Positions 15,125 through 59,400 of a stretch of 64,000 bases of DNA are shown one piece after another. A program made the translations under genes and the position numbers. Source of the stretch: Muscardinus avellanarius (taxonomy: Eukaryota > Chordata > Mammalia > Rodentia > Gliridae); assembly GCA_963383645.1 (NCBI GenBank), contig OY726567.1, positions 67,831,575 through 67,895,574 on the forward strand, given 5' to 3'. The notes under the pieces were generated by a model that was given only the letters and a program-made list of their open reading frames with translations, was not told the origin of the DNA and did not search any database. Position 1 is the first letter of the stretch. Each line of letters begins with the position of its first letter.

Positions 15125-15918
15125 GAACTTCCGGGAAGATGGCGACCGAGAAAAGCGGGGCTTAAGAGTCCCGCTAACAACCAATCTCCATTACCACAAA
15201 ACCAGCGCCTTTCATAGCCAGAAAACACCATCACCAGAAAAACAAAAAAACCCACCAGGCTCCAGAGAGAAAGCGGACTGAGAATAGAGCTCAGGGCCAC
15301 AGAGGAGACACACGCGCCCGAGGACGCGGCAGCAGCGCCATACTGCCGGCTGCAGCGGCGAACTCAACGGACGGCTACAGCAAGCCGAGGTGAGCCACTG
15401 CGGAAGAGCCAGGCGGGATTTCTCCACGCAGAGAGCGTCTAAAGCTCCCAGTGGCCAAGCTCAGCACACGCTGCAGGGATTCAGAGTGGAAATCAAAACC
15501 AGAGAAGAAAAAATATGCCAGCCTCACGGCCGAGGGCATAGCAGAGGCGCCATATTGCCACCGGCGGCGGCAGCAGCAGTGAATTCACCGAGTCCAGTAC
15601 AGCTACATCTGCGTACTCAAGAACAGTGAGTCAAATTGCGGGCCACAGAGGAGAAATCCCAGTACTGTACCTCCTGGGACTTGACCCAGTGAGGGAGTGA
15701 TGGTGGCAGAGATATTACACCATAGGAGAACGTGCAACCTGGCATCCCCCATAGTTAAAAGCAGCCTCTATCGACTCCCTGGGTCGGAGACTCTGTGATA
15801 CAACCCAGTAAAGGAGTAGTGGGGTCTGAGATAATACAGACTCGAGATCCAGAGCACCTTAAGTGAAGCCATAGTGACCTAAGGGAAGAACCCAGAGAAG
15901 GCACAAACCTCCGAAATC
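15125..15918 (+). promoter_or_regulatory. 5' UTR/internal promoter of half-L1 copy A
   Basis: GC-rich leader of 794 nt. A YY1-type AAGATGGCG lies a few bases from the 5' end, where L1 families often place a YY1 site that positions initiation. Two related blocks, 'agcgccatactgcc' (about 15334) and 'ggcgccatattgcc' (about 15546), each precede CGG/CAG-rich runs and look like diverged copies of one module. Promoter function is inferred. Confidence 0.55.
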
Positions 15919-16836
15919 ATGGGAAAGAGGAATAACACTGGAGTAATGAATGAGCACAACCCCACAACATCAGAACCCGATAAAACAGAAAATCAGAGAT
16001 TTCTAGAAGATCAAATCAGGAAAATAACTGTAGAAATAATAGAGGTGCTTCGAAAAGAACTCAGAGAGAGCCAAAAAGAGATAAAGGATGCAATTAATGA
16101 AGTAAAGGCCTCAATTCAAAGCACAAACAACCGATTAGAACACATGGAGAACAGAATCTCGCTCTTAGAAGATGAGCAATCCAAAAATGAACGCATAGTT
16201 TCTAATCTAGAAAAAGATATCCAACAGCAGGAATCTGATATTGAAGAAATATGGGCCCATCTTAAGAGAGCTAACCTAAGAATAATTGGAATAGAGGAGG
16301 GAAAAGAAAGTGAAACCAAAGGGATCAACAATCTCTTCAAGGAAGTAATAGCAGAAAATTTTCCAAATATAGAGCAAGAGGTTGATACACAGATCCAGGA
16401 AACTTATAGAACTCCCTCTAGACAGGATCGGAGAAGAGGATCCCCACGCCACATAATTGTCAAAATGACCAATGTGGAAGCCAAGCAGAGAATCTTAAAG
16501 GCAACAAAAACAAAGGGCCAAGTGACATTCAGAGGCAAACCAATTAGAATCACTCCAGACTTCCCAAACCAAGTCATGAGAGCCAGAAGGGCTTGGAGTA
16601 ACATATTCCAAACTCTGAAAGAAAACAACTTCCAGCCAAAAATTTCCTATCCAGCAAAACTTTCTATCAAATTAGATGGAGAAATAAGAAGCTTCCATGA
16701 CAAACAGAAACTCAAGGAATTTATGTCTTCAAAACCAGCGCTAGAGAAAATACTCAAAGAGATTAACTACAAAGAAGAAATAGGTAACACTCACCAGAAC
16801 CAGAGAAACAAGATTTTCCATCCAACAGACAACTAA
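15919..16836 (+). CDS. LINE-1 ORF1 protein (305 aa), half-L1 copy A
   Basis: L1 ORF1p is a trimeric RNA-binding, nucleic-acid-chaperone protein that coats L1 RNA in cytoplasmic particles. Here the frame is intact with ATG in good context (A at -3, G at +4). Residues about 22-115 are heptad-rich and Glu/Lys-rich (coiled coil). Residues about 118-215 fit the RRM, starting at 'LRIIGIEEGKES' and including 'PRHIIVKMTNVEAKQRI'. Residues 215-285 fit the C-terminal domain, with the conserved 'NFQPKISYPAKLS' and 'DKQKLKEF' segments. Length is slightly below the usual 330-380 aa because the N-terminal arm is short. No ORF2 follows, so mobilisation needs ORF2p in trans. It differs from copies B and C at only a handful of residues. 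Confidence 0.9.
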   Translation: MGKRNNTGVMNEHNPTTSEPDKTENQRFLEDQIRKITVEIIEVLRKELRESQKEIKDAINEVKASIQSTNNRLEHMENRISLLEDEQSKNERIVSNLEKDIQQQESDIEEIWAHLKRANLRIIGIEEGKESETKGINNLFKEVIAENFPNIEQEVDTQIQETYRTPSRQDRRRGSPRHIIVKMTNVEAKQRILKATKTKGQVTFRGKPIRITPDFPNQVMRARRAWSNIFQTLKENNFQPKISYPAKLSIKLDGEIRSFHDKQKLKEFMSSKPALEKILKEINYKEEIGNTHQNQRNKIFHPTDN

Positions 16837-16929
16837 GATTGGTTATCTGTGGAGATTCATTATTTTTGTTAGTCTTTACCTATCTCTAAATTGTATTGTT
16901 TGCCTTTATTGTTAATTTTTAGGATTTCT

Positions 16930-17540
16930 AGTTGGAATATTAATATACCTACAGATATAGCATTTGGAAATATTTTATCCAATTCTATTAGTAACTTTTA
17001 ACTCTGTTTACATTGTCTTTGGATATACAATATTTTTTTTTATTTTCTAGGGAGTTTGTATATTCTTCTGTTGCCTGTGCCATTGAAATCATAACCAAGA
17101 AATCACTGCCAATTTCAATGTTGTGAGGTTTTATGACCCAGATTTTCTTCTAAAAGTTTATAGTCTTAAGATTTATATTTAGGTCTTTTATCTATTTTGA
17201 GTTAATACTTGTATGTGGGATTAGGTAAGGGTCCAATTTTATTCTTTTCCATGTAATTATTATTTTTCAACAATATTTAGTTAAAAGATTATTATTTCCA
17301 CCACCAAATGTTCGTGGAAACCTTGTCAAAAATAACTTGACAATATAGGGAAGAATTTAGCTCTAGGCCTGTATTTAACTCCAATGGTTTATATATCTGC
17401 CTTTAGAACAGTATTACACTGTTTCAATTATTGTAGCTTTATATGGTTTGAAATCAGAAAATATATATCTGCTAGCTTTGTTCTTTTTCAAGATCGTTTT
17501 GGGTATCTAGAATTCATATTCCATATTAGGATAGATTTTT
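16930..17540 (-). mobile_element. Antisense LINE-1 ORF2 segment inside half-L1 copy A
   Basis: Read on the + strand, the order of motifs ('atagcatttggaaatatttt', 'gaaatcactgcc', 'aggtcttttatctattttga', 'gggtccaattttattctttt', 'tgtagctttatatgg', 'ctttgttctttttc') is the familiar antisense version of the 3' half of L1 ORF2. It is not open. The same segment occurs at the same place in copies B and C, so it belongs to the master element rather than to a later insertion. Confidence 0.8.
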
Positions 17541-17934
17541 TTCTGAAAAATAAATATATGAATATATGATAGTTTCACCTAAAAAAACAGAAAAAAATAT
17601 GCTCTGGTAAGAAAGAAAGCAAAAAGAAATATTGAAATGTTATCTTTAAGTTATCAAAAGCTTGGTATCAGACAAATGAAACTGTTATGTGAGATTAACA
17701 TTTTTAATTTTGGATAAATTGCTATAATACTAGATGTCAACCACTAAGCCAAGCATGGGAAGGAGGGATGGGGAGGGAATGGGGTGGGGATCGGGTGGGG
17801 GCTGACTGGGCGATGTGTGCATGTATGTCTACAAAAGTATGTATCCCACTATGATGTATGAATACAGTGCACCAATAAAATAAAATTTAAAAAAAAGTTA
17901 AAAAAAAGTATAGTATAAAAAATAGCCTGGGTGG

Positions 17935-18153
17935 CCAGGCATGGTGGTGCACGCTTGTAATCCCAGCACTTGGTAGACTGAGACAGCAGGATCGCACAGG
18001 TTCAAAGCCATCATCAGCTACTTAATGAAAATCTCAGCAACTTAGTGAGACCCTGTTTCCAAATAAAATATAAAATAGGTCTGCGAGTATAGCCCAGAGG
18101 TAGAAAGCCTCTGGGTTCCACCCCCAGTACCATCAAAAATAAAAAAATTTTAA
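17935..18153 (+). mobile_element. B1-dID SINE
   Basis: Complete dimer ('ggccaggcatggtggtgcac' to 'cccccagtaccatc') inserted in the host SINE tail. Confidence 0.85.
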
Positions 18154-18202
18154 AAAGCCTGGGTGTAACTCAGAAGTAAAATGCCCCTGGGTTCAATCCC
18201 AC

Positions 18203-18205
<3 letters not shown>

Positions 18206-18241
<36 letters not shown>

Positions 18242-18242
18242 A
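18206..18242. repeat. (AAAT)n repeat
   Basis: A-rich tail of the host SINE expanded to about nine AAAT units. Confidence 0.9.
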
Positions 18243-18324
18243 TGTTAAATTATATCACAAATTGAAATAACAAAATATGTGCACTTTTCTAGACAAACAT
18301 TTTAAATTCTTACTCTAGGAGGTT

Positions 18325-18649
18325 ATTTATGGGAATTGAAATTAGGAGCATTCTACCCCTAATCCCTTTTAGTTTTTTAGTTTATTTATTCATTTATTTG
18401 TTGTGGTACTGGAGATTGAATCCAGGGGCATTCTACCTCTGAGCTACACCCCCCAGACCTGTTTTATCTTTTATTTTTGAAAAAGGGTCTCACTAAGTTG
18501 CTAAAACTGGCCTAGAACCTGCGGTATTTCTCTCTCAGCCTTCCTAGTTCTGGAATTGCAAAGGCTGGGTCACTATGCCCAACTTACTTTTCTTTTTGAA
18601 ACAGGTAGCCCTAAATTGCTAAGAGACTTGCTCGGTTTTTTTCTTTTCC

Positions 18650-18703
<54 letters not shown>

Positions 18704-18985
18704 CTTTCTTTTTTGTGGTACTGGGGATGGAAGCCAGCGGCATTATACCTCTGAGCTACACTCCCAGCCCTATTTTTTATTCTTTATTTTGAAACAGGGT
18801 CTCACTGAGTTGCAGAGGGCCTCACTAAGTAGCTGAAGCTGTCCGCGAACCTCGATCCTCCTGTCTCAACCTCCCAAATGCTAAGATTACAAGCGTGGGC
18901 CACCACACCCGGCTTCTAAATTTCTTAAACTTTCCTTCAACCTAGGATGCTCCAGTGTTAGCCTCCCAAATACCGGATTACAGTT
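18325..18985 (-). mobile_element. Antisense B1-dID cluster with (TTTC)n
   Basis: Tail fragment 18325-18356; dimer 18395-18590; left-half fragment 18592-18640 and 18916-18985. Between the two pieces lies an inserted young dimer (18711-18915) whose tail is a TTTC repeat (18650-18705). Confidence 0.65.
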
Positions 18986-19067
18986 CACACCCTTATAGCT
19001 AGGAGATTATGTAATTAAGGAAAGTATTGGAAAGGACCTGTGAAGTGGGTGGATCCTCCCAGGGCAG

Positions 19068-19142
19068 ATAAATACCAAGCCAGTCAGTGTCAGACTCAAC
19101 CATCGAGCGCTCGCCTTCTCTCCCTGGGCCTCTCTCCAAGCT
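19068..19142 (+). other. Candidate promoter and first exon
   Basis: Non-SINE island. A TATA-like 'gataaata' (19068-19075) is followed by about 65 bp and a consensus donor GTAAGT at 19143. A possible second exon lies at 23696-23800 on the same strand, 9 kb upstream of the USP29 coding region, whose relatives have noncoding 5' exons. The link is inference. Confidence 0.3.
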
Positions 19143-19399
19143 GTAAGTTTTCTTCAGTCCCGTTTGAAGTTTACTTGTTTGGTTGGTGAGATGTGTGCAT
19201 ATGTTTATTGGGGAAGGTTTGGCATTCTTAATGCCCAGGGATATTGTTAGATATTGTGGTAAGGGTGTTTCATTTTCTACCCATTGTGTGGGTGCACTGG
19301 AGATTAGGAAGCCCTGATTCTAGTTTTAATTTGCGTCTAGTTTTCCGTGACTTTATATACTGGCAGTTTGGGAAAGAAGCATTTATTTATTTATGTATT

Positions 19400-20440: not shown

Positions 20441-20650
20441 CAGACCATTTTGACTCATAGGAAATTAACACTTTGTAAGACTGAGTTTAAGTCTGATGTT
20501 ATAGAAACGGTGAATGGTGAAGCTAGGTTTGACTCCTGGCAGTTTCAATGTTTAATGATCTTAATGCGTCCTTTTTTCTGTTTCTTAGTAACAGGAGAGG
20601 GAAGAAAGTAAACATACTTGGCATTCTAGGCTGAGCAAAGCTATAACTAG
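20441..20650. other. Short single-copy stretch
   Basis: No gene or repeat recognised. It ends at a GT/GC-rich simple repeat (20652-20685). Confidence 0.45.
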
Positions 20651-20685
20651 GTGTGTGCGTGCATGCGTGCGTGCGTGTGCGTGTT

Positions 20686-20877
20686 ACTGGTGGTTTAATC
20701 CAGGGGCATTATACCTTCGAGGCACACCCCAGACCTATTTTTTAATTCTTATTTTGAAACAGGGACTTGTTAGGTTGATCAAAGTATCACTACTTGCTGA
20801 GGCTGTCCTCGAACCTGCAATCCTCCTGTCTCAGCCTCCCAAGCACTGGGATTACAGGCATGTGTCACTGCATCCTG
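20686..20877 (-). mobile_element. B1-dID SINE, antisense
   Basis: Complete antisense dimer preceded by a (GCGT/GT)n tail. Confidence 0.8.
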
Positions 20878-21505: not shown

Positions 21506-21561
<56 letters not shown>

Positions 21562-28822: not shown

Positions 28823-29940
28823 AAAAACAAGCCTTCATTGAAATAGTGGAAGGAGAAAAGGAAATTAAACTGTTACTTACTTTTGATTCTGAAGAATGTA
28901 TAACCATTTTGTTAGCTTCGTAATACTATTCCAAGTGTGGTCCTTAGACATCATGGAGAAAACCAATATCACCTTTTAACTTTGAAAAATATTACCTGGC
29001 AAGCGTGGTGGTGCGCGCTTATAATTCTAGTACTTGGGAGACTGAGATAGGAGGATTGCAAGTTTGCATCAAAAGTTTGCGGCCAACCTCAACTACTTAG
29101 TGAGACCCTATGCATCTTAGTGAAACCCTGTTTCAAAATAAAGAATAAGACTTCCGGGAAGATGGCGACCGAGAAAAGCGGGGCTTAAGAGTCCCGCTAA
29201 CAACCAATCTCCATTACCACAAAAAGAGCGCCTTTCATAGCCAGAAAACACCATCACCAGAAAAACAAAAAAACCACCAGGCTCCAGAGAGAAAGCGGAC
29301 TGAGAACAGAGCTCAGGGCCACAGAGGAGACACACACGCCCGAGGACGCGGCAGCAGCACCATACTGCCGGCGGCAGCGGCGAACTCAGCGGACAGCTAC
29401 AGCAAGCCGAGGTGAGCCGATGCGGAACAGCCAGGCGGGATCTTTCGGTGCAGACAGCATTTAAAGCTCCCAGTGGCTGAGCTCAGCACACGCTGCAGGG
29501 ATTCAGAGTGGAAATCAAAACCAGAGAAGAAAAAATACGCCAGCCTCATGGCCGAGGGCGTGGCAGAGGCGCCATATTGCCACCGGCGGCGGCAGCAGCA
29601 GTAAATTCACCGAGTCCAGTACAGCTACATCTACGTACTCAAGAACAGTGAGTCAAATTGCGGGCCACAGAGGAGAAATCCCAGTATTGTGCCTCCTGGG
29701 ACTTGACCCAGTGAGGGAGTGGTGGTGGCAGAGATATCACACCATAGGAGAGCGTGCAACCTGGCACCCCCCATAGTTTAAAGCAGCCTCTATCGACTCC
29801 CTGGGTCGGAGACTCTGTGATACAACCCAGTAAAGGAGTAGTAGGGTCTGAGATAATACAGACTCGAGATCCAGAGCACCTTAACTGAAGCCATAGTGAC
29901 CCAAGGGAAGAACCCAGAGAAGGCACAAACCTCCGAAATC

Positions 29941-30858
29941 ATGGGAAAGAGGAATAACACTGAAGTAATGAATGTGCACAACCCCACAGCATCAGAACCT
30001 GATAAAACAGAAAATCAGAGATTTCTAGAAGATCAAATCAGGAAAATAACTGTAGAAATAATAGAGGTGCTTCGAAAAGAACTCAGAGAGAGCCAAAAAG
30101 AGATAAAGGATGCAATTAATGAAGTAAAGGCCTCAATTCAAAGCACAAACAACCGATTAGACCACATGGAGAACAGAATCTCGCTCTTAGAAGATGAGCA
30201 ATCCAAAAATGAATGCATAGTTTCTAATCTAGAAAAAGATATCCAACAGCAGGAATCTGACATTGAAGAAATATGGGCCCATCTTAAGAGAGCTAACCTA
30301 AGAATAATTGGAATAGAGGAGGGAAAAGAAAGTGATACCAAAGGGATCAACAATCTCTTCAAGGAAGTAATAGCAGAAAATTTTCCAAATATAGAGCAAG
30401 AGGTTGATACACAGATCCAGGAAACTTATAGAACTCCCTTTAGACAGGATCCGAGAAGAGGATCCCCACGCCATATAATTGTCAAAATGACCAATGTGGA
30501 AGCCAAGCAGAGAATCTTAAAGGCAACAAAAACAAAGGGCCAAGTGACATTCAGAGGCAAACCAATTAGAATCACTCCAGACTTCCCAAACCAAGTCATG
30601 AGAGCCAGAAGGGCTTGGAGTAACATATTCCAAACTCTGAAAGAAAACAACTTCCAGCCAAAAATTTCCTATCCAGCAAAACTTTCTATCAAATTAGATG
30701 GAGAAATAAGAAGCTTCCATGACAAACAGAAACTGAAGGAATTTATGTCTTCAAAACCAGCGCTAGAGAAAATACTCAAAGAGATTAACTACAAAGAAGA
30801 AATAGGTAACACTCACCAGAACCAGAGAAACAAGAGTTTCCATCCAACAGACAACTAA
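29941..30858 (+). CDS. LINE-1 ORF1 protein (305 aa), half-L1 copy B
   Basis: Intact ORF1 with the same coiled coil, RRM and C-terminal domain as copy A. The frame is also open upstream to a GTG at 29896, but the first ATG in good context is 29941, matching the start in copy A, so I use that. It differs from copy A at few positions (for example residue 9 G to E, 75 E to D/H region, 91 E-R to E-C, 167 S to F). Premature stops are absent, consistent with recent activity. No ORF2 follows. Confidence 0.9.
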   Translation: MGKRNNTEVMNVHNPTASEPDKTENQRFLEDQIRKITVEIIEVLRKELRESQKEIKDAINEVKASIQSTNNRLDHMENRISLLEDEQSKNECIVSNLEKDIQQQESDIEEIWAHLKRANLRIIGIEEGKESDTKGINNLFKEVIAENFPNIEQEVDTQIQETYRTPFRQDPRRGSPRHIIVKMTNVEAKQRILKATKTKGQVTFRGKPIRITPDFPNQVMRARRAWSNIFQTLKENNFQPKISYPAKLSIKLDGEIRSFHDKQKLKEFMSSKPALEKILKEINYKEEIGNTHQNQRNKSFHPTDN

Positions 30859-30949
30859 GATTGGTTATCTGTGGAGATTCATTATTTATGTTAGTCTTTT
30901 ACCTATCTCTAAATTGTATTGTTTGCTTTTATTGTTGTTAATTTTTAGG

Positions 30950-31565
30950 ATTTCTAGTTGGAATACTAATATACCTTCAGATATAGCATTTGGAAATATT
31001 TTATCCAATTCTATTAGTAACTTTTAACTCTGTTTACATTGTCTTTGGATATACAATATTTTCTTTTATTTTTTAGGGAGTTTGTATATTCTTCTGTTGC
31101 CTGTGCCATTGAAATCATATCCAAGAAATCACTGCCAATTTCAATGTTGTGAGGTTTTATGACCCAGATTTTCTCCTAAAAGTTTATAGTCTTAAGATTT
31201 ATATTTAGGTCTTTTATCTAGTTTGAGTTAATACTTGTATGTGGGATTAGGTAAGGGTCCAATTTTATTCTTTTCCATGTAATTATTATTTTTCAACAAT
31301 ATTTAGTTAAAAGATTATTATTTCCACCACCAAATGTTCGTGGAAACCTTGTCAAAAATAACTTGACAATATAGGGAAGAAGTTAGCTCTAGGCTTGTAT
31401 TTAACTCCAATGGTCTATATATCTGCCTTTAGAACAGTACTACACTGTTTCAATTATTGTAGCTTTATATGGTTTGAAATCAGAAAATATACATCTTCTA
31501 GCTTTGTTTTTGCTCCGAGATTGTTTTGGGTATCTAGAGTCCATATTCCATAACAGGATAGATTT
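30950..31565 (-). mobile_element. Antisense LINE-1 ORF2 segment inside half-L1 copy B
   Basis: Position and sequence are equivalent to the segment in copy A, with identical relative junctions. Confidence 0.8.
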
Positions 31566-32434
31566 TTTTCTGAAAAATAAATATATGATGGTTTCACCTA
31601 AAAAAAAGAAAAAAATATTCTCTGGTAAGAAAGAAAGCAAAAAGAAATATTGAAATGTTATCTTTAAGTCATCAAAAGCTTGGTATCAGACAAATGAAAC
31701 TGTTATGTGAGATTATCATTTTTAATTTTGGATAAATTGCTATAATACTAGATGTCAACCACTAAGCCAAGCATGGGAGGGAGGGATGGGGAGAGAATGG
31801 GGTGGGGATCGGGTGGGGGCTGACTGGGCGATGTGTGCATGTATGACTACAAAAGTTTGTATCCCACTATGATGTATGAATACAGTGCACCAATAAAATA
31901 AAAAAAAAATAAAGAATAAAAAATATAAGCCAGTTGTGGTGGCACACGCTTGTAATCCCAGCATTTGGGAGGCTGAGATAGGAGTATCCCGGTTCCAGGA
32001 CAGTCTCAGCTACTTACTGAAGCCAATTGTAACTCAATGAGACCCTGTTTCAAAATAAATTAAAGCCGGGCGTGGTGGCGCACGCTTGTAATCCCCGCGC
32101 TTGGGAGGCAGAGACAGGAGGATCGCGCAGGTTCGAAGCCAGCCGCGCGCGCTGGTTTAGGAGACCCTGTTTCCAAAATGAAAATGTAAAAAATAGGTCT
32201 GGGAGTGTAGCCCGGAGGTAGAAGGGCTTCCAGGAACCCCAGTACCACCAAAAAAAAAAAAAAACCAAAAAAAAATAAATTTAAAAATAGAGCTACGGGT
32301 GTCGCTTGGAGGTAGAATGCCCCTGAGTTCCATTGCCAGTGCTGCAAAAAAAAAAAAAAAAATAGGGCTGGGGATGTAACTCAGGTAGAATGCCCCTGGG
32401 TTCCATCCACAGTACCACACACACAAATATTACC

Positions 32435-33391: not shown

Positions 33392-35374
33392 ATGCTATCA
33401 TCTGGTCTCAAGATGAATAAGGACTCCCAGGAAGAAAATAATCCCAAACAAAACAAGAAATTCAATACAAATGCCAGGAAATCTGTAAGAAGTGATAATG
33501 AGAAACCATTAGGTTTAAAAAATCGAGAAAAGGATAAACATTCAAAACCCAGACCTCCATTCAAGACCAATCATAATATAAGTCCTAACTTAGCGAAGAT
33601 TGTTCTTGCAAACCAGGCTCTCTCTTCCAGAGAAAACTTGGCTTTTCCAATGGAATCAAAACTTGTGCAGGACAACTCAATGCAGAATAAAGCCCAGGAT
33701 TCCCTTGGCTCTCACCCAGGGCAACAATCAGAAGGCCACCCAGAGCAACGATGGGAAGGCTTTCCAAATTTGGGAAATACCTGTTACATGAATGCAATTT
33801 TGCAATCCCTGTTTGCAATTCCATCGTTTGCTGATGACTTACTCAAGCCAGGTCTCCCACTGGAGGACTTCTGCTCAGAAGCTCTTATTATACCCTTGAG
33901 CCACTTGCTCATCTTAAAGGACATCTCTAAGGTAGAGACAAAGGGAGAGCTACTCTTAAGTGTCAAAAATGCCATTTCTGCAGTTTCGGAAATATTTTCT
34001 GGCAACATGCAGAATGATGCCCATGAATTCTTAAGCCAGTGTCTATATCAGTTGAAAGAGGACATTGAATATTTAAATATCATTTCGAATTCTGAGCGAG
34101 AACGTGGGGATGCAAACTTGCCTCCACAGATGTATGCTGGTAACGGTGCCACCAAAGTATTAATTTGTCCTGTGGCCGCTAATTTTGAGTTTGAAACGCA
34201 GACCTCCATTTTTTGCAAAGGGTGTGGTCAGGTCATTCTCAAGAAAGAACCAAATAATTATCTCTCCATCAACCTGCACCAAGAAGCACTACCCCTGCCC
34301 ATGTCTATTCAAAGATATTTTGATAATTTCTTTCAACCAGAAGAATTTGAGTATAACTGTAATAAGTGTCAGCACAAGAGTTCAATTTTAAGCTGCAAGT
34401 TTAGTAGGCTCCCTAGAGTCCTTATTGTTCACCTGAAACGCTATAGCTTTAACAGTGCTTTGTTACTGGTAAAGAACAGCCAAAAAGTTGAGATTTCCAA
34501 GTATTTAACTTTATCTTCACATTGCAACGAAGACACAGAACCGCCACACCCCTTGTACAGTAATGAACCTGTCGGGAATGATGATGTCTTGAACTTCTCT
34601 CAAGAGATGATTTCTACCAAGTTGATCTCAGAACCCCATGATTCCCTGGCTCTACACATTGAACCAGACATGGGTGCCGAACTACAAAAATTCCAGAGCA
34701 TCTATGAAGAAGTAAGTCTAAAAAATTCTTCTAAACTGGAACCAGAGCTGGATAACTCAATAAATAGGCCCCTCGGGGAAAAGAGGCAGCCAAGAGCTGA
34801 CTGGGCGATGGATGAGAGACCATCTTTTGGCATTCCGGATACAGGTCTTACTGAGGCTCACTTTCAAGAGGTGCCTGAATATACAGAACTTAAGAATGAT
34901 GAGGAAATGAATGTATTGGGAATCTGGGAACACACAGACAAGGAACTGAGTACAGTGACAGAATTAAGACTTGAGAAAACAGACCTAAATTTTGTTGATG
35001 CATCAGGATCTGATAAGAACCTTGAAAACAAAAGCAGTTCAGATGGGGAAAGTACAGTAGATAGGGCCAAGGGGCCCAAACATGTGGAGACAGAACCTAT
35101 CGAGGCGTACAGGCTCATCAGTATTGTCAGCCACATTGGGCTATCCCAAGATTCAGGCCACTACGTCAGCGATACTTACGACTTTAGAAAGCAGGCATGG
35201 CTCACGTATAATGATATGAAGGTGTCAGAAATCCCAGAGGCCATGATTCAGAAGATGAGGGCTTGTACTGGCTACATTTTTTTTTACATGCACAATGAGA
35301 TTTTTGAGGCACTGTTGCAAAAGGCGGCAAGTTCTGAGGTACTGGGTGCACAGGCTGCAGTAGTTTCCCAGTGA
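33392..35374 (+). CDS. USP29: Ubiquitin carboxyl-terminal hydrolase 29, catalytic-core ORF (660 aa)
   Basis: Deubiquitinase of the USP26/USP29/USP37 group, which removes ubiquitin from substrates by cysteine-protease chemistry. The frame is open for 660 codons. Residues 123-139 carry the Cys box (GFPNLGNTCYMNAILQ, Cys131). 'NMQNDAHEFL' follows at 205-214. CxxC pairs at 275/278 and 323/326 form the fingers zinc site. 'VLIVHLKRYSF' is at 343-353. The His box has His590 (SGHYV) and Asn607 (TYND). It ends in 'TGYIFFYMHNEIFE', typical of USP26/29. Known USP29 is about 870-920 aa in one coding exon. This ORF starts about 165 residues in, lacks the PH-like domain and has a shortened linker before the His box. 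The Met at 33392 is the first in frame, and a one-base frameshift lies just before it. It may be translated as a core-only enzyme or be a recently inactivated gene. Confidence 0.85.
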   Translation: MLSSGLKMNKDSQEENNPKQNKKFNTNARKSVRSDNEKPLGLKNREKDKHSKPRPPFKTNHNISPNLAKIVLANQALSSRENLAFPMESKLVQDNSMQNKAQDSLGSHPGQQSEGHPEQRWEGFPNLGNTCYMNAILQSLFAIPSFADDLLKPGLPLEDFCSEALIIPLSHLLILKDISKVETKGELLLSVKNAISAVSEIFSGNMQNDAHEFLSQCLYQLKEDIEYLNIISNSERERGDANLPPQMYAGNGATKVLICPVAANFEFETQTSIFCKGCGQVILKKEPNNYLSINLHQEALPLPMSIQRYFDNFFQPEEFEYNCNKCQHKSSILSCKFSRLPRVLIVHLKRYSFNSALLLVKNSQKVEISKYLTLSSHCNEDTEPPHPLYSNEPVGNDDVLNFSQEMISTKLISEPHDSLALHIEPDMGAELQKFQSIYEEVSLKNSSKLEPELDNSINRPLGEKRQPRADWAMDERPSFGIPDTGLTEAHFQEVPEYTELKNDEEMNVLGIWEHTDKELSTVTELRLEKTDLNFVDASGSDKNLENKSSSDGESTVDRAKGPKHVETEPIEAYRLISIVSHIGLSQDSGHYVSDTYDFRKQAWLTYNDMKVSEIPEAMIQKMRACTGYIFFYMHNEIFEALLQKAASSEVLGAQAAVVSQ

Positions 35375-44680: not shown

Positions 44681-44811
44681 CTTCAGGGTTTTAACACCAA
44701 TTAATTTTTTTCCTCAATCAATCATTACTATAACTGAAAAAATGATTATTACTAAGTTTATTTTTATCTTCTCAAGGTCTACTGAACTTTTTATAGTATT
44801 GAGTGCCCACA

Positions 44812-47800
44812 TTAAGAAAAGAAAGTTGCCAAGTAAACAACCTAATGACATATCTCAAAGACCTAGAAAAACTGCAAAGGTATAATCCCAAAGCCAGCAG
44901 AAGGCAGGAAATAATTAAAACCATATCAGAAATAAAAAATTCAAAGAATCAACAAAATAAAAAGCTGGTTCTCTGAAAAGATTAATAAGATTGACAAACC
45001 CCTGGCCAACCAAACAAAACAAAAGGGAAAACCAACTCAAATCATTAAAATTAGAAATTAAAAAGGGAATATCACCACAGACAATGAGGTAATTCAAAGG
45101 ACTATCAGAAACTATTTTGAAAATTTATACTCCAATAGACTAGAAAACATGGAAGAAATTGATAGATTTTTAAGCACATATAACCTACCTAGATTGAGCC
45201 AAGAGGCCATAGGAAACCTAAACCAACAAATAGCAAGCAAAGAAATAGAAATGGCAATAAAAATTCTGCATCAAAGAAAATCTCAGGCCCTAACAGGTTT
45301 CTAGGTGAATTCTACAAAATCTTCAGTGAAGAACTAATCCTAATACTTCACAACTTGTTCCAGGAAATTTAAAGAGATTAAATTCTCCCAAACTCCTTCT
45401 ACAAGGCCAGTATTACATTAATCCCCAAACCAAAAAAGATAACCTCAAGAAAAGAAAATTACAGACCAATATCCTTGATGAACATAGATGCAAAAATTCT
45501 AAACAAAATACCAGCTATACACATTCAAAACCATATCAAGAGAATTGTACACCATGACTAAGTTGGTTTCATCCCAGAAAATCAAGGCTGGTTCAACATA
45601 TGCAAATCAACACATGTTATTCAACACATAAATAGAATGGAGAATAAAATCCACAAGAGCACATCAATAGATGCTATTAAAAGCTTTTGACAAAATCCAG
45701 CACCCAATCATGTTAAAAACACTGCAGAAAATTGGAATAGAAGGAACGTATTGCAACAATCATTAAGGCAATATACAATAAACCCAAAGCCAACATCATA
45801 TTAAATAGGGAAAAACTGTAAGAATTTCCTCTAAAATCAGAAACAGAAAAGAATGCCCACTATCACCAGTCTTTTTCAATATAGTCCTTGAGACTCTTGC
45901 CACAGCAATAAGAAAAGAGAAGGATATCAAAGGAATTCAAATAGGAAGAGAGGAATTAAAACTATCCTTGTTTGCAGATGACATGATCCTTTTTCTAAAA
46001 GACCCAAAGAACTCAACCAAAACACTAATGGAGATGATTAACCAATTCAGCAAAGTTTCAGGATTATAAAATCAACCTAAAGAAATCAGTTGCTTTTCTT
46101 TTTTTGGTGGTACTGGGGTTACACTCCCAGATCTATTATTTTTTTATATTTTTATTTGGAAACAGGGTCTCCTAAGCCAGTGTGGCTGGCTTCGAACCTG
46201 CGCAAACCTCCTGTCTCTACCTCCCAAGTGGGGGGATTATAAGCATGTGCCACCACGCCCAACAAAATCAGTTGCTTTTCTATTTCATTCTATGAATGAA
46301 ATAAAGAAAACAATCCCATTCACTATAACCTCAAAACCAATAAAATACCTAGGAATAAACCTAACCAAAGATGTAAAAGATCTCTACAATGGAAACTATA
46401 AAACATTAAAGAAATTGAGGAAGACCTTGGAAGATGGTAAGATCTTCCGTGCTCATGGATAGGCAGAATAAATATCATCAAAATGGCCATCCTGAAAAAA
46501 ATGATCTACAGATTTAATGCAATTCCTATCAAAATACCAACGACATTTTTCATAGACCTAGAAAGATCAGTCATGAATTTTATATGGAGAAAGAAAAGAC
46601 CCAGAATAGCCAAAGCAATCCTCAGCAATAAGAACCATGCAGAAACATCACAATCCCAGCTTCAAATTATGCTATAGAGTAATAGTAGTAAAAACAGCAT
46701 GGTATTGGCACAACAACAGGCATACAGACCAATGGAACATAATAGAAGATACAGAAACAAACCCACACATTTATAGTCAATTGATCTTTGACTAAGGTGC
46801 CAAACTCATGCACTGGAGAAAAGACAGCCTTTTCAACAAATGGTGCTGGTAGACCTGGCTATCCATTTGTAGAAAGATGGAACTAAATCCTTACCTCTCA
46901 CCGTGCACAGGAATCAACTCAACATGGATCAAAGACTTGGAAATTAGACCCGAGACTGTGAAGCTATTAGAGGAGGACAGAGGCTCAACACTCCAACATA
47001 TAGGCACAGGTAGTAACTTTCTTAACAAGACCTCCAAAGCACAAGAAACTAAAGCAAGAATTAACAAGTGGGATGGCATCAAAGTAAAAAGTTTCTGCTC
47101 ATCAATGGAAACCATTAAGAACCTAACAAGAAAGCCTACAGAATGGGAGATCTTTACCAGCCACCATATCCAGAATATACAAAGAGCTCAAAAGACCCTA
47201 CACTAGCGAAAAACAAATAACCCAATCAAGGAATGGGCAACTGAATTGAATAGACACTTCACAAAAGAATAGAAACAAATGGCCGATAGATACCTGAAAG
47301 AATGTTCAACATCATTAGCCATTAGGGAGATGCAAATCAAAGCTACACTAAGATTCCATCTAATCCCAATCAGAGTGGCAAACATAAAGAAGTCAAATAA
47401 TAACAAATGCTGGTGAGAATGTGGGGAAAGAGGAACTCTTTTATACTGTTAGTGGGAGTGAAAACTAGTTCAGCCCCTATGAAAACTAGTTCAATGTGGA
47501 GATTCCTTTAAACTGGGAATAGATCCACTATTTGATCTGGCTCTACCTCTCCTGAGTATCTGTCTAAAGGGATTGAAATAGGAGAACTACAGTAAAATAT
47601 GCATACCCATGTTCATAGCAGCACAATTCGTAATAGCCAAAATATGGAACCAACCTAGGTCTCCATTAATAGATGAATGGGTTGCAAAATTATGGGAAAT
47701 ACACAAATTGGAATCCTTCTCAGTTATAAAAAAAAACACAAAATCACGTCCTTCACAAGAAGCTGGAAAGACATGGAGAACATTATGTTAAGTGAGATCA

Positions 47801-48118
47801 GCCAAGCACAGAAAGAGAAGGGACATATGTTTTCTCTAATATGCCCAAACTAGGAAGTATTAGGAATACCAAAGGGACCCTAGATAATGGAGGGGAAACC
47901 TCAGCAAAAATTGAAAGGAAGGGTAGGAGAGGAAGAAGGCCGAGGTTGATTAATGGAGGAGCTACATTCAAATATATATAAGTGTGAATATAGCATGGTC
48001 AACCTGGACACTCATTGTTGGGAGGGGGGAAATGGGAAGTGTGGGAGGAAGAGCACCAAGCAGTGTGTGAATGTATGCCATTTTCAATATGATCCACGTA
48101 AAAATAAAATATTAAAAC
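44812..48118 (+). mobile_element. LINE-1, sense, 5'-truncated, decayed ORF2 and 3' UTR
   Basis: Begins in the middle of ORF2, before the reverse-transcriptase domain. The RT motif 'FADDMILFL' is encoded at 45971-45997. The ORF2 end reads through to about 47790, followed by a purine-rich 3' UTR (47875-48060) and AATAAAATATTAAA. Frameshifts and stops are frequent, so it makes no working protein. An antisense SINE interrupts it at 46099-46262. Its 3' UTR differs from that of the half-L1 family. Confidence 0.85.
46099..46263 (-). mobile_element. B1-dID SINE, antisense, in the L1
   Basis: Short copy with a truncated tail; AAATCAGTTGCTTTTCT repeated on both sides is the TSD. Confidence 0.85.
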
Positions 48119-48995: not shown

Positions 48996-51900
48996 TACTG
49001 AGAATGGAACCCAGGGGCATTCTACCTCCAAGCTACACTCCTAGCCCTATTTTTCATTCTTTTTTAAATTTTTAAATTAAAATTTTTTTGGTGGTACTGG
49101 GGTTCCTGGAAGCCCTTCTACCTCCGGGCTACACTCCCAGACCTATTTTTACATTTTTATTTGGAAACAGGGTCTCCTAAGCCAGCGCACGTGGCTGGCT
49201 TCGAACCTGTGCGATCCTCCTGTCTCTGCCTCCCAAGTGCGGGGATTACAAGCGTGCGCCACCACGCCCGGCCACTAAATTTAAATTTTTTATATTATTA
49301 AAGGCAGACTGCCATGTGCAGAGCCTCATTTGGATGTGTCTGGGGTTTTGGAAGCTTGACTATACTCGTATACCCTTGACCAAAGACCCGTCCTCTTCTA
49401 TTTGGGGAAGGTCGCCCTCTTCGACCGAGCATGCAGCTTTGGGAGGGACGCACATGGAATGGTGAGGGAGGAAGGGGACACCTGCCTAGCCAGCCAGATC
49501 AGCCAAATCAATCTTGGCGATCAATGGAGTGACAGATGTCTCAGCCAGATTGCCCTCATATCCTTCATTCTTTATTTTGAAACAGTGTCTCACTGAGTTG
49601 CAAAGGTCCTCACTAAGTAGCTGAGGCTGTCTGTGAACCACAATCCTCCTGTCTCAGTCTCCCCAATTCTGGGATTTCAAGCATGTGCCAACATTCAGCT
49701 GTCTTGCTAAATTTCTGAGTTTAACTTCAAACCTTCTATCCTCTCTCAGGCAGGCGTGGTGGCACACACCTGTCCCTCTCTCTTCCCTCTTCCTCTTCTT
49801 CCTTTTCTTCCTCTTCTTCCTTTTCTCTCTCTCTCTTTTTTTTCTGGTATTGGGTACCAAGTCCAGGGGCGTTGTACCTCCAAGCTATAACCTCAATCCT
49901 TTTTTTCTATTTTATTTTGAAAAAAAATCTCACTAAGTTGCTAAAGGTCTTGCCAAATTCTGAGGCTGGCTTTGAATCTGTGATCCTCCAGTCTCAGACT
50001 CCCATGTATTGGGATTATAGGCATGTGTAATCACAACTGGCTTTTTTCCCCTTAAGACAAAGGAGAAGGAGCCAAGTATACGGTGATACATGCCTGTAAT
50101 ATCACTTGGGGGGCTAAGATAGGAGGATCACAGGTTCAAGACCAGTCTCAGAAATTTAATGAAATCCTGCTTCAAATAAAAACATTTTTTAAAGGGCTCT
50201 GGGTTTCACTCATATGTAAAATCCCTCCAGGTTAATTCTCAGTCCAAAAATAAAATAAAGTAGATATAAGCTGGGCATGGTGGTGCATGCCTGTAATCTC
50301 AGGAGTTGGGAGGCTGAGACAGGAGTATTGCAGGTTCTGGGATAGCCTCAAAAACATAGCTAGGAGCCGAGCATGGTGGTGCATACTTGTAATCCCAGTT
50401 CAAAGCCAGCCTCAGATACTTAGTGAGGCTTTTTGCAACTCAGTGAGACCCCGTTTCAAAATAAAGAATACAAAATAGGGATGGGGGTGTAGCTCAGAGG
50501 TAGAATGCCCTTGGATTCCATCCCTACTACCAAAAAAAAAAAAAAATAGGGCTGGGGATATAGCTCAAAGGTAGAATGCCCCTGGGTTCAATCTCCAGTA
50601 CCACCAAAAAATAAAGTAGACATAACGATCCCATCCTCAGGTTATAATCAGAAGGGATAAAAGATATGACAGATATAAAGATTTTGCCAGTACTTGGGAG
50701 GCTGACAAGGTTTAAGGACAACATCAGCAACCTGATGAGACCCTGTTTCAAAATAAAAATATAAAATAGGGTTGGGGGTGTAGCTCAGGTAGAATGCCCC
50801 TGGGTTAAATTCCCAGTACCACAAAAATAATAAATGAATGAATGTTTAGCCAAGTGCCTACTTATATTCAATGTTAATTAATATTCATCCACTTAGTCAA
50901 CAAATGCCTAATGTACAAGAGAAACAACACTGATCATGACAGACAGAAAGAACTAGCTGGGGATGAGAGAATGAGCCCTGTGGACACCTGTGCTAGACAC
51001 TGCCAGACAGAGAAGCTCACCAAGGAGGCCTTGACATAGAAGTGTGCCAGGGCTCCGTGTGGCTCCCCTCCCTGTACATCTCATTCCCTAGGAATGAGAG
51101 CACAACTTTAAAAAAAAATTTATTAGTGCATTATAGTCATACTAGACATACATCTGCAACACAACTTCTCATCACATACCTGGACTTTTGACTCAGGAAC
51201 CCCGATTTCCTTGGCTAGGAGTTCTCTGGAGTTGACCCCAGGATAAGGGTTGTTGGTAAATGCCTTGAGGAGCACCTGCAGTTGGGCAGAACTGTACCTG
51301 ATGCGGCTCTGTCTAACTTTACCTGGGGAGGGCAGAGATTGGAGAGCATCCAGGAACATTTCAGGGGTTAGTTTCTATATTCAAACACAGAACCCAAACA
51401 TGGCCCTCCATCTCTTTCTAATCTGGAACCTATTACCTCTTCCTGAGAGGACTGTGGACCAAGTCATTCCAGAAAGAAGGTTCTAGAGACCAGAAAATGT
51501 CCAGGCTTTTGGATTCCAGCAGAGAGAAGGTATATCAGAGGAAAATCTCAGATGCTCAATGGACAGGACTGATGACAATGTCTGGGCTCAGCAGAACCCT
51601 TGCTACCAGTAGACCCTGAACAGGGAGCCAGGGAAGAGAGAAGTTTTTGTTTTATTTCATTTTTATAGTGCTAGGGATAAAAACCAGGGCCTTAAGAATG
51701 TGCTATACCACTGAACTACATCTCCAGCTCTTATTCTTTTTTTTTGTGTGTGTGTGTGGTGCTATGGATGAAACCCAGAGGCATTCTCACTAAGTTGCAG
51801 AGGACCTCATGACGTAGCTGAGGCAAGCAGCGAACACAGATCTTCTTGTCTCAGCCTCCCAAGTACTGGAATTACAAGTGTGCGCCATCACACCTGGCCC

Positions 51901-53438: not shown

Positions 53439-53480
<42 letters not shown>

Positions 53481-56400
53481 GTGAGAAACTTAAGGATAGT
53501 AGAAAGTTCATCATTAGTATATCCTTTATTGGTCCAAGCTCAAATAAACTAAGCAGAGCTTCTCTCCGCTTAAGCCATCTTAATTTCAATGCTAATTCCT
53601 TCACAAGTAGAGGGATAAAATCCATTCAATCTTGAGAAAAAAATATGTTTTTTTTACAGTACTGGGGGTGGAACCCATGGGTATTCTACCTTCAGGCTAC
53701 ACCCCCAGCCCTGCTTTTTATTCTTTATTTTACAACAGGGTCTCACTGAGTTGCAAAGGGCCTCACTAAGTAGCTGAGGTTGTCCACAAACTGCGATCCC
53801 CCTGTCTCAGCCTCCCAAATGCTGGGATTACACGTTTGCCGACCATGCCTGGCTGGGAAAGAAAAACTTTTCCTTCCTTCCTTCCTTCCTTTCTGTTGTT
53901 GGGGATTGAACCCAGGGATTTTCTACCTCTGCGATACCTATTAGCCCTATTTTATATTTTAAATTTTGAAACAGGGTTTCCCTAAGTTGCTGAGAGCCAT
54001 GCTAAATTGCTGAGGCTGGCCTTGAACCTTTGATCCCACTATTTCAGCCTCCCAACTACTGGGATTACAATTGCACCACCACACCTGGCTACTTACCTGG
54101 ATTCTTGACTCTTCAATGTTGATTTCCATAGCAAGTTTTTGTTTAGTAGAATAACTTGGGTAAGGAGATTTGTCAAAGGTGTTGATAAGTATTTTCAATT
54201 GCTCGCTTGTGAATATGGTACGATTGCGCCTATGGTATATTGGCACAGGCTCTGGAAAGATTAGAAAACAAGAAGCATTTCGTAGGCTTATTTAGGAATT
54301 TAAACTTCAGGTTCAATTGAGTCTCTCATTTTGTTTTCCCATTGGTAATCCACCAGAACCCCCTGGAGAACTATTCTGATTCAACTATAAACCCTTAAAC
54401 ACACAAGGTGGTTTCCCAACCTCTACAACTGTTCTAAAGGCCATGATTCAAGAGCAAAGGTCCTATGGTTTCATAAATAATGGGAAACTGATAAGTTGTG
54501 TTCACGTGGGTCAGGAACAAAATAATTTGGGAGAATGCCTGAACACAGGTGTGGGGGTACACACCTGTGATCCCAGTACTTGGGAGACTGAGACAGGAGG
54601 ATTGTAGTTTCAAAGCCAGCCTTAATAACTTAGTGAGGCTGTTGGCCATTTAGTGAGACCCTGTTTACAAATAAAAAATAAAAATGGAATTAGGGATGTA
54701 GCTTGGAAGTAGAATGACCCTGGACTTAATTACCAGTACCTCAAACAAAACAAAACACTCAGTTTATCTTTGGCTCTAGGCACAGTGACTGGTTCAGAAC
54801 AGGTTGGTGATTCCTAAGTCAACACCAGAGAAGCTCCAACACTTGTGCATAGGGGTGATGTAAATAGATATTCCCTGCCACCATGTTTGTGATAGTAAAA
54901 CTTTTTTGGGGGGTGGTGGTAATGGGAATTGAAACTCAAAGGTCTCTACCTTTGAGCTGCATCCCAGCCTTATTCTATTTTTTATTTTGAAACAAGGTCT
55001 TACTAAGTTGCTGAGAGACTCACTAAATTGCTGAACCTGACCTCAAACCTACGATCCCCCAGTCTCAGCCTCCCAAGTACTTCATGTGCCACCACGCTCA
55101 ACTTCGACTTCTTTTCCAAACTCACAACAAAAATTTCATTTTAATTAATTGACTAATTAATTATTGCAGCACTAGGGATCAAATCCAGGGGCATTCTACG
55201 TCTGAGCTATACCCCTAGACCATTTTTTTTTCTTTTTTGCAGTATTGGGAATGGAATTGAGGGGGGCATTCTACCTCTGAAGCTATGCCCTCAGCCCTAT
55301 TTTGTATTTTATTTTTTTTTTGAACTAGGGTCTCACTAAGTTGCAGAAGGCCTAAGGAGCTGAGGCTGTCCGTGAACCACAATCCTCCTGTCTGCCTCCC
55401 AAGTACTGGGATTACCACTACGCCTGGAAACAACAAAAAAAATTTTTTTTGGGGGGGTCTGGGGATGGAACCCAGGGGCATTTGACATCTCAGCTACACC
55501 TCCTACCCTATTTTTTATTCTTTATTTTTTATTCTTTATTTTTTTGAAACCGGGTCTCACTGAGTTGCAGAGGGCCTCACTAAGTAGCTGAGGCTGTCCG
55601 CGAACCGCAATCCTCCTGTCTCAGCCTCCCGAATGCTGGGATTACAAGCGTGCGCCACCACGCCCAGCACAACAAAAATTTTAAATGCATAAATTTTTTT
55701 TCTTGTGGTGCTGGGCCTGGAACCCAGGGCCTCACACATGCCATGTAAGTGCTCTACCACTGAGTTACACCTGCAGCCAGGAATGTTTTTATATTTATAG
55801 AGAAGATGCAACGAGAGTAATAGGATGTGAAGTGCCTGTATATGCCGCACCAGCTTTCCCTACTAACTTTAGTAGTACATACACATCCCATCTAAATAAT
55901 TCATATTGACTTCCGGGAAGATGGCGACCGAGAAAAGCGGGGCTTAAGAGTCCCGCTAACAACCAATCTCCATTACCACAAAAAGAGCGCCTTTCATAGC
56001 CAGAAAACACCATCACCAGAAAAACAAAAAAAAAACACCAGGCTCCAGAGAGAAAGCGGACTGAGAACAGAACTCAGGGCCACAGAGGAGACACACGCGC
56101 CCGAGGACGCGGCAGCAGCGCCATACTGCCGGCGGCAGCGGCGAACTCAACGGATGGCTACAGCAAGCCAGGTGAGCCGCTGCGGAACAGCCAGGCGGGA
56201 TCTTTCAGCGCAGACAGCATTTAAAGCTCCCAGTGGCTGAGCTCAGCACACGCTACAGGGATTCAGAGTGGAAATCAAAACCAGAGAAGAAAAAATACGC
56301 CAGCCTCATGGCCGAGGGCGTGGCAGAGGCGCCATATTGCCACCGGCAGCGGCAGCAGCAGTGAATTCACCGAGTCCAGTACAGCTACATCTGCGTACTC

Positions 56401-59400
56401 AAGAACAGTGAGTCAAATTGCGGGCCACAGAGGAGAAATCGCAGTATTGGGCCTCCTGGGACTTGACCCAGTGAGGGAGTGGTGGTGGCAGAGATATCAC
56501 ACCATAGGAGAACGTGCAACCTGGCACCCCCCATAGTTTAAAGCAGCCTCTATCGACTCCCTGGGTCGGAGACTCTGTGATACAACCCAGTAAAGGAGTA
56601 GTGGGGTCTGAGATAATACAGACTTGAGATCCAGAGCACCTTAAGTGAAGCCATAGTGACCCAAGGGAAGAACCCAGAGAAGGCACAAACCTCCGAAATC
56701 ATGGGAAAGAGGAATAACACTGGAGTAATGAATGTGCACAACCCCACAACATCAGAACCTGATAAAACAGAAAATCAGAGATTTCTAGAAGATCAAATCA
56801 GGAAAATAACTGTAGAAATAATAGAGGTGCTTCGAAAAGAACTCAGAGAGAGCCAAAAAGAGATAAAGGATGCAATTAATGAAGTAAAGGCCTCAATTCA
56901 AAGCACAAACAACCGATTAGACCACACGGAGAACAGAATCTCGCTCTTAGAAGATGAGCAATCCAAAAATGAATGCATAGTTTCTAATCTAGAAAAAAAT
57001 ATCCAACAGCAGGAATCTGACATTGAAGAAATATGGGCCCATCTTAAGAGAGCTAACCTAAGAATAATTGGAATAGAGGAGGGAAAAGAAAGTGATACCA
57101 AAGGGATCAACAATCTCTTCAAGGAAGTAATAGCAGAAAATTTTCCAAATATAGAGCAAGAGGTTGATACACAGATCCAGGAAACTTATAGAACTCCCTT
57201 TAGACAGGATCGGAGAAGAGGATCCCCACGCCATATAATTGTCAAAATGACCAATGTGGAGGCCAAGCAGAGAATCTTAAAGGCAACAAAAACAAAGGGC
57301 CAAGTGACATTCAGAGGCAAGCCAATTAGAATCACTCCAGACTTCCCAAACCAAGTTATGAGAGCCAGAAGGGCTTGGAGTAACATATTCCAAACTCTGA
57401 AAGAAAACAACTTCCAGCCAAAAATTTCCTATCCAGCAAAACTTTCTATCAAATTAGATGGAGAAATAAGAAGCTTCCATGACAAACAGAAACTGAAGGA
57501 ATTTATGTCTTCAAAACCAGCGCTAGAGAAAATACTCAAAGAGATTAACTACAAAGAAGAAATAGGTAACACTCACCAGAACCAGAGAAACAAGAGTTTC
57601 CATCCAACAGACAACTAAGATTGGTTATCTGTGGAGATTCATTATTTATGTTAGTCTTTTACCTATCTCTAAGTTGTATTGTTTGCCTTTATTGTTGTTA
57701 ATTTTTAGGATTTCTAGTTGGAATATTAATATACCTTCAGATATAGCATTTGGAAATATTTTATCCAATTCTATTAGTAACTTTTAACTCTGTTTACATT
57801 GTCTTTGGATATACAATATTTTCTTTTATTTTTTAGGGAGTTTGTATATTCTTCTGTTGCCTGTGCCATTGAAATCATATCCGAGAAATCACTGCCAATT
57901 TCAATGTTGTGAGGTTTTATGACCCAGATTTTCTCCTAAAAGTTTATAGTCTTAAGATTTATATTTAGGTCTTTTATCTATTTTGAGTTAATACTTGTAT
58001 ATAGGATTAGGTAAAGGTCCAATTTTATTCTTTTCCATGTAATTATTATTTTTCAACAATATTTAGTTAAAAGATTATTATTTCCACCACCAAATGTTCG
58101 TGGAAACCTTGTCAAAAATAACTTGACAATATAGGGAAGAATTTAGCTCTAGGCTTTTATTTAACTCCAATGGTCTATATATCTGCCTTTAGAACAGTAC
58201 TACACTGTTTCAATTATTGTAGCTTTATATGGTTTGAAATCAGAAAATATATATCTGCTAGCTTTGTTCTTTTTCAAGATCTTTTTGGGTATCTAGAATT
58301 CATATTCCATATTAGGTTAGATTTTTTTCTGAAAAATAAATATATAAATATATGATAGTTTCACCTAAAAAAACAGAAAAAAATATGCTCTAGTAAGAAA
58401 GAAAGCAAAAAGAAATATTGAAATGCTATCTTTAAATCATCAAACGCTTGGTATCAGACAAATGAAACTGTTATGTGAGATTATCATTTTTAATTTTGGA
58501 TAAATTGCTATAATACTAGATGTCAACCACTAAGCCAAGCATGGGAAGGAGGGATGGGGAGAGAATGGGGTGGGGATCGGGTGGGGGCTGACTGGGCGAT
58601 GTGTGCATGTATGTCTACAAAAGTTTGTATCCCACTATGATGTATGAATACAGTGCACCAATAAAATAAAATTAAAAAAAATAAATAAATAATTCATATT
58701 GATAGCTTATTAGTAACAAATGCCAAAACTTTTAATTAATTTATTTATTCTGTGTGTGGGGAGGTGGTATGGGGGATTGAAACCAGGGACATTCTACCTC
58801 TGAGCTACACTCCCAGCCCTATTTTATTTTTATTTATTTTTATTTATTTTTCTGTGGTACTGGGTATGAAACCCAGGGGCTTTCTACCTCCAGGTTACAC
58901 TCCCAGACCTATTTTTTCTTGGAAACAGGGCCTCGCTAAGTTGTGGAGGCCTCACTATGTAGCTGGGGATGGCTTTCAACCTGAGTGATCCTCCTGTCTT
59001 AGCCTCCCAAGTATTGGAACTACAAGCATGCACCTCCATACCCGGCTATTTTTATTTTTGAAACAGTCTCACTAGCTGGGCATGGTATCACACACTTGTA
59101 ATCTTAGTACTCAGACCTGTGATCCTCCTGTCTCAGCCTCCCAAGTACAAGGATTATAGGTGTGCACCATCATGACTGGCTTATTTGGATTTTTCTTATG
59201 TTTTTACTGATACCCTTTTTCTGTTCTAGAATCCCATGTAACATAACACTAATTTAGTCATTGTGACTATGTAGGCTCTTGGTGGCTCTGACAGTTTCTC
59301 ATACTTTGAGGTTTAAGGAGTACTGGTTGGGCATTTTGTACCATCTTAATTGGGAGTTATCAGATGTTTTTCTCATAATTACATTATTATTTTGGAAAAG

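Follow-up and report, generated by a model that had tools for sequence, protein, structure and literature searches.

Three ORF1-only L1 derivatives in the window

In this study, we analysed a stretch of 64,000 nucleotides from Muscardinus avellanarius (contig OY726567.1; hereafter the window), which carries on its plus strand three full-length derivatives of long interspersed element 1 (L1) that very probably belong to the half-L1 (HAL1) kind, i.e. elements with a first open reading frame (ORF1) and no sense ORF2. Copy A lies at 15125..17902 (2778 bp), copy B at 29149..31905 (2757 bp) and copy C at 55910..58685 (2776 bp); a fourth HAL1 copy was not found within the 64-kb window. Each copy is enclosed by its own exact target site duplication (TSD), which in copy A is 15 bp long (AAAAAGTATAGTATA; 15110..15124 at the 5′ end and 17903..17917 at the 3′ end), in copy B 14 bp (29135..29148 and 31906-31919) and in copy C 17 bp (55893..55909 and 58686-58702). 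The divergence between the copies is 3.05% for A-B, 2.78% for A-C and 2.14% for B-C.

ORF1 comprises 305 codons and is open in all three copies (15919..16836 in A, 29941..30858 in B and 56701..57618 in C, all on the plus strand). For B and C the listed open frame is 320 codons long, starting from an in-frame upstream GTG; ORF1 itself has 305 codons there as well. The L1 RRM and C-terminal domains (Pfam PF02994 and PF17490) match ORF1 of A, B and C with expect values (E) of ~1e-27 and 1e-22, and ORF1 of copy A also matched solved structures of the L1 ORF1 protein (ORF1p). A search of viral contigs with ORF1 matched seven stretches, none of which was a relative. For ORF2, the plus frames of the 3′ regions of A, B and C were compared with an L1 ORF2 profile, and the best hit had an E of 0.98. 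The window copies thus lack the mark of an autonomous L1, a sense ORF2 that encodes endonuclease and reverse transcriptase. Assignment to the HAL1 type is supported by the L1-homologous ORF1, the lack of a sense ORF2, the A-rich tail with TSD, and the dispersed family of one structure described below. The initial annotation of the window had given these coordinates, lengths and ends, an exact TSD of 14-17 bp for each copy, a 305-codon open ORF1 in all three and no sense ORF2, and all of this was borne out; pairwise divergence and TSDs, which it had named as a check, came to 2.14-3.05% and to 15, 14 and 17 bp.

A dispersed family with one junction

The host genome (2.497 Gb in 104 contigs) was searched using ORF1p of copy A as query, and 129 of 69,505 first-look candidates were scored. 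All 129 extend over the complete 305 residues with 97-100% identity, and a stop codon is lacking in 124; copies B and C are absent from the 129, so that the family has at least this number of ORF1 matches. From the 129, eight were retrieved, most of them high-ranking. All eight proved to be full-length HAL1 elements with 96.7-98.1% identity to copy A, and seven of them have TSDs of 13-16 bp. Together with A, B, C, L007, L026, L027a, L027b, L028 and L033 they form a set of 17 full-length copies, 2757-2864 bp in length, whose start sites lie no more than ~15 bases from a common point. In 14 of the 17, TSDs of 12-17 bp were detected; by exact match L027a, L033 and L047 have none or a T run only. 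ORF1 is intact in 15 copies and broken in L007 and L033, a proportion that is partly selected, all copies but A, B and C having been found via ORF1. The 11 young copies differ from each other by 0.9-3.2% (median 2.4%).

The junction between ORF1 and the 3′ untranslated region (UTR) is identical in all 17 full-length copies, and because of this the copies are best taken as one family and not as independent deletions. A rival reading is that A, B and C each lost ORF2 from an autonomous L1 by a separate internal deletion; an L1 lineage with homologous 5′ UTR and ORF1 does exist in this genome. Such an origin is extremely improbable in view of the common junction, the separate TSDs in 14 of 17 copies and the tree of the 17, which has common branches. 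Also, the nearest L1 found, which has ORF2, forms a distinct lineage 7-8% away in ORF1, while the eight HAL1 copies compared are at most ~5% apart. The initial annotation had held that its interpretation would fall if genome-wide copies normally contained a sense ORF2 and the three copies were separate deletions with different junctions; among the 17 copies the opposite was found, and the search with ORF1 returned a dispersed full-length family.

Beyond the full-length copies, two partial ones (L012 and L023) and one old, 5′-truncated copy (L038, 86%) were recognised. In L023 (reverse complement), HAL1 parts are found at 3-473 and 7777-9011, and a young L1 is inserted within ORF1; HAL1 bases ~1544-1561 occur on both sides of this L1, as expected of a TSD, and bases ~557-1453 of the HAL1 are missing. 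L027a and L027b have a common left flank and lie 4.15 kb apart, at ~1251-8191 of L027 (reverse complement). Their 5′ UTRs are identical, their ORF1s nearly so, and their 3′ parts are 5-10% apart, as would be left by a local duplication combined with exchange or with unequal crossing over.

Structure of the untranslated regions

The 5′ UTR of copy A (15125..15918, plus strand, 794 bp) is CpG-rich, with an observed/expected ratio of 0.65, and begins near ACTTCCGGGAAGATGGCG; a YY1-like motif lies 12 bp from the start of the copy. It is homologous to the 5′ UTR of two other L1s of the genome, L040 and L041; similarity to the 5′ UTR of the active L1 of the host was sought and not found.

Downstream of the ORF1 stop, copy A has a segment of ~150 bp of unrecognised origin (16837..16986, plus strand), extending to the part of the 3′ UTR that is common with L040. 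It is also present at the matching place in copies B and C and is absent from the 3′ UTR of L040. The following part contains a piece of L1 ORF2 in inverted orientation. For its detection, a profile was built from 20 full-length ORF2 proteins, which matched the minus frames of copy A at 16967..17506 (E 3.4e-21; ~codons 870-1053), of copy B at 30993..31637 (2.9e-22) and of copy C at 57753..58292 (4.9e-21); with tblastn, E values down to 2.8e-17 were obtained. A looser DNA alignment to the active L1 of the host pairs window positions 16846-17551 with codons ~835-1082 (447 of 753 columns identical). Aligned to a decayed L1 in the window, the antisense 3′ region scored 642, higher than any of 200 shuffles (mean 500, standard deviation 30); in sense direction nothing was detected against the same L1, with 107 of 200 shuffles scoring as high. 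A protein search of solved structures with the antisense piece of copy A gave no match. The element closes with a G-rich sense 3′ end (17733..17896 in copy A, plus strand), these final ~160 bp being ~77% like the 3′ UTR of an older autonomous L1 (L024, L041), which in L024 is located past the end of ORF2. The initial annotation had described a G-rich 3′ UTR. The G-rich sense end stands; the 3′ UTR is not plain, however, and contains the inverted ORF2 piece (E 2.9e-22 to 4.9e-21), which had been overlooked.

Twin priming is a familiar source of partly inverted L1 copies. HAL1 could have originated in a single step if a twin-primed, partly inverted L1 had landed just past ORF1 of another L1, which would place inverted ORF2 after ORF1 and supply a new poly(A) site along with a sense 3′ end. 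Order and direction of the HAL1 parts fit this, with inverted ORF2 running from ~codon 1053 (1082 in the looser alignment) down to ~835, followed by the sense 3′ end. We consider this one-step origin improbable, as the same inverted piece is found in L040 downstream of an intact sense ORF2, and the first 150 bp past the ORF1 stop show no significant resemblance to ORF2: their score of 128 is close to the mean of the shuffled sequences (124) and was reached by 161 of 500 shuffles, and the profile test was non-significant as well. A further candidate idea, that the inverted piece reaches to the ORF1 stop and HAL1 shows the older state, was dropped when these first 150 bp failed both the shuffle and the profile test.

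Autonomous L1s in the same genome

For the active L1 of the host (L010 type), 17 loci were chosen among the 150 genome-search matches listed, 16 of them with an open frame of 329 residues and one with 331. ORF1 has 325 codons in all 17 loci and ORF2 1275 codons in 13, and both frames are open in 13. Pairwise divergence is 0.1-4.6% with a median of 0.4%; in copies with a shorter 5′ end, the stretch compared also takes in flanking sequence. The L010 type is very young and could supply the ORF2 protein (ORF2p). Where the two can be aligned, its ORF1 is only ~70% identical to that of HAL1, and its UTRs show no relationship to those of HAL1. Eleven further listed matches comprised seven L1s of the L010 type (93-99% to L010), two HAL1s and two L1s of another lineage. 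In a midpoint-rooted ORF1p tree, HAL1 groups with three unnamed proteins (source ENA), and the sister of the HAL1 clade is formed by ORF1p of the active host L1 and one further unnamed protein; this group of ten has a support of 100/99, and under the same root squirrel L1s fall outside it.

The nearest L1 found is L040, with an ORF1 of 305 codons, 7-8% from that of HAL1, and an ORF2 of 1275 codons, both open. It is homologous to HAL1 from the 5′ UTR through ORF1 up to base 1713, one base beyond the ORF1 stop, and its 3′ UTR, including the inverted ORF2 piece, matches HAL1 bases 1863-2772, to the 3′ end, at 91%. Unlike HAL1, it has an intact sense ORF2 and ~640 bp more 5′ UTR, and the 150 bp downstream of ORF1 in HAL1 are missing from it. 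The initial annotation had suggested looking for an autonomous L1 that shares the 5′ UTR or the 3′ end; L040 shares both. L041 is 96% like L040 from the 5′ UTR to the end of ORF2, but its ORFs are broken and its 3′ UTR is an ordinary one. The different 3′ UTRs of L040 and L041 point to an exchange of 3′ ends between L1 lineages.

Within the window, a decayed L1 with a sense ORF2 is located at 44800-48115 (plus strand), split near 46.1-46.26 kb by an insert resembling a short interspersed element (SINE). As the initial annotation had proposed, this sense ORF2 is accompanied by another 3′ UTR: it is unlike those of HAL1 and of the active L1, and local alignment of the 3′ ends with HAL1 yields 14 bases only.

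Movement and constraint

A transposition event can be traced in two of the retrieved copies. Beyond its HAL1 3′ end, L049 (C23) carries ~63 bases that correspond to the 3′ TSD and flank of L045 (C6) with one base different, followed by an A run and a TSD of its own. L045 and L049 are 0.9% apart (25 differences in 2777 bases). By its sequence L049 is a 3′ transduction, descending from RNA of L045 or of an L045 allele, and the two form an apparent parent-daughter pair. The separate TSDs, the single junction in 17 of 17 copies and this pair agree with the initial annotation in that the copies moved as units.

Copies A, B and C were used for the comparison of constraint, as they had not been chosen via ORF1. 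Outside CpG, 13 of 891 columns are variable in ORF1. Both flanks vary more, with 38 variable columns among 1017 for the 3′ UTR (Fisher p 0.002) and 25 among 662 for the 5′ UTR (p 0.004). On the codon level the picture speaks less for a maintained ORF1. The ratio of non-synonymous to synonymous changes per site (pN/pS) among A, B and C is weakly below 1, with 11 of 18 coding changes being non-synonymous (one-sided p 0.048 at an assumed site share of 0.80), and ratios for pairs of older copies reach 0.6-0.95. Because the latter come so close to 1, codon-level support for selection on ORF1 is modest.

It is somewhat unlikely, yet to be taken seriously, that the copies are immobile relics in which ORF1 is open merely through youth. 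The terminal branches of A, B and C, at ~1% each, are long next to the median pairwise divergence of 0.4% among active L1s. The lower variability of ORF1 relative to its non-coding flanks argues for the opposite, as do the 124 of 129 scored ORF1s without stop, in a list ordered by similarity to ORF1, and the distance of 0.9% between L045 and L049. All of this bears on past and not on present-day movement.

We interpret the copies, with high confidence, as half-L1 elements with intact ORF1 and no sense ORF2 that likely combine their own ORF1p on their own RNA with ORF2p, as nuclease and reverse transcriptase, from an autonomous L1. RNA would be made from the HAL1's own 5′ UTR; this is suggested by the start sites of the copies, which lie no more than ~15 bases from a common point. 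The RNA would then be bound by the element's own ORF1p, which would be kept for acting on it, and ORF2p of an autonomous L1 would perform target-primed reverse transcription in trans. The helper may be one of two lineages, the very young L010 type or the L040 type that shares both ends.

Origin of the family

HAL1 likely descends from an L1 similar to L040 that lost ORF2, because L040 shares with it the 5′ UTR, ORF1 and the 3′ UTR. The family would have a single origin in an L1 whose 3′ UTR already carried the inverted ORF2 piece, and the loss would have taken everything between just past the ORF1 stop and a point inside the 3′ UTR. Expressed relative to the deep HAL1 copies L026 and L007, the distance of L040 to copy A is 1.7-1.8 fold in the 5′ UTR, 1.8-2.0 fold in ORF1 and 1.4-1.7 fold in the 3′ UTR, which is roughly what common descent would predict. 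In the ORF1 tree and in the 3′ UTR tree, whose root is uncertain with the outgroup distant or missing, L040 stands beside the old copy L038 and apart from the young HAL1s.

Four observations weigh against this origin. The relative distance of L040 is lowest in the 3′ UTR, leaning to a later exchange of this region. An ordinary 3′ UTR is found on L041 despite its 96% similarity to L040, which means that one of the two has exchanged its 3′ end and the model needs an extra step; under an origin by ORF2 loss, this would be L041. The ~150 bp past the ORF1 stop have no recognised source, and one single L040-type L1 was seen. The first two points also speak for the possibility that L040 gained its 3′ UTR from HAL1 through template switching, HAL1 being the donor and not the heir. 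We regard this as doubtful, since the distance ratios of the 3′ UTR (1.4-1.7 fold) and of 5′ UTR and ORF1 (1.7-2.0 fold) differ little, and L040 is placed with L038 and away from the young HAL1s in both trees, uncertain as their root is.

More generally, and tentatively, HAL1s and autonomous L1s of this genome might trade 3′ ends, the 3′ UTR with inverted ORF2 occurring on an ORF1-only family and on the intact L040 and being absent from the near-identical L041. If true, a 3′ module common to the parasite and its possible helper could steer ORF2p of the helper to HAL1 RNA.

Other features of the window

Between copies B and C, an intact ORF of 660 codons at 33392-35374 (plus strand) encodes a USP29-like ubiquitin protease. 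The protein is at most ~57% identical to any of the 24 relatives in its tree, and its identity to the listed squirrel USP29 proteins is 43-47%; in the tree it lies outside squirrels, murids and heteromyids, with weak deep support. A squirrel host, which SINE-like sequence had suggested, was rejected on these two grounds, and SINE features together with the ORF1p neighbours point to a rodent. The N-terminal domain of primate USP29 (PF16674) is missing from the protein, and two ground squirrel USP29s (655-657 aa) are similarly short. At 49296-49563 (minus strand), the 7SK RNA model was matched end to end with 245.6 bits, possibly representing a retrocopy.

Comparison with known HAL1 systems

The general question posed by HAL1s is why an element reliant on the enzyme of another retains its own ORF1. 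The genome studied here holds a young HAL1 family, an autonomous open-ORF relative that has both ends in common with this family, a second L1 that is very young and whose ends are unrelated, and two HAL1 copies that are apparently parent and daughter. Such matched natural elements could be used to test the choice of helper and the role of ORF1p in cis.

Human HAL1 and HAL1B are old elements. They are described as L1 derivatives that have ORF1 only, end in a poly(A) tail and are flanked by TSDs, with nearly 2,100 copies (PMC5322556, PMC5753468), and HAL1s are reported to have emerged several times among mammals (PMC5753468). The present family resembles the human elements in being ORF1-only with poly(A) tail and TSDs, and differs from them in being young. 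Closer in age are the guinea pig families HAL1-1H_Cpo, -3D, -1G and -1E, given in Table 2 of PMC3183009 with <1% divergence from consensus and 37-106 copies each, and HAL1-1C_Cja of the marmoset, for which the same table gives 32 copies below 1% divergence; no HAL1 family of <1% appears there for the thirteen-lined ground squirrel. ORF1 of guinea pig HAL1s is stated to have stayed coding for ~29-44 million years, which was read as ORF1p being needed in cis and ORF2p in trans (PMC3627910). In a cell assay, ORF1p was required besides ORF2p both by an Alu transcript driven by polymerase II and by processed pseudogenes (PMC2666806).

Likened by description only, the guinea pig HAL1s correspond to the present family in their youth, their coding ORF1 and the ORF2p thought to act in trans, and that of the marmoset in its youth; the hosts are another species in the first case and a primate in the second. 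The initial annotation had set recently mobile copies against mostly old HAL1s. The youth of the copies holds, though not as a novelty, young families being on record in guinea pig and marmoset. The HAL1 kind and young HAL1 families are already published, and because families of <1% divergence are listed for these two hosts, the present family is an addition to a known kind. What deserves a second look is the inverted piece of ORF2, the fact that an L1 with open ORFs also carries it, and the pair of copies linked by transduction.

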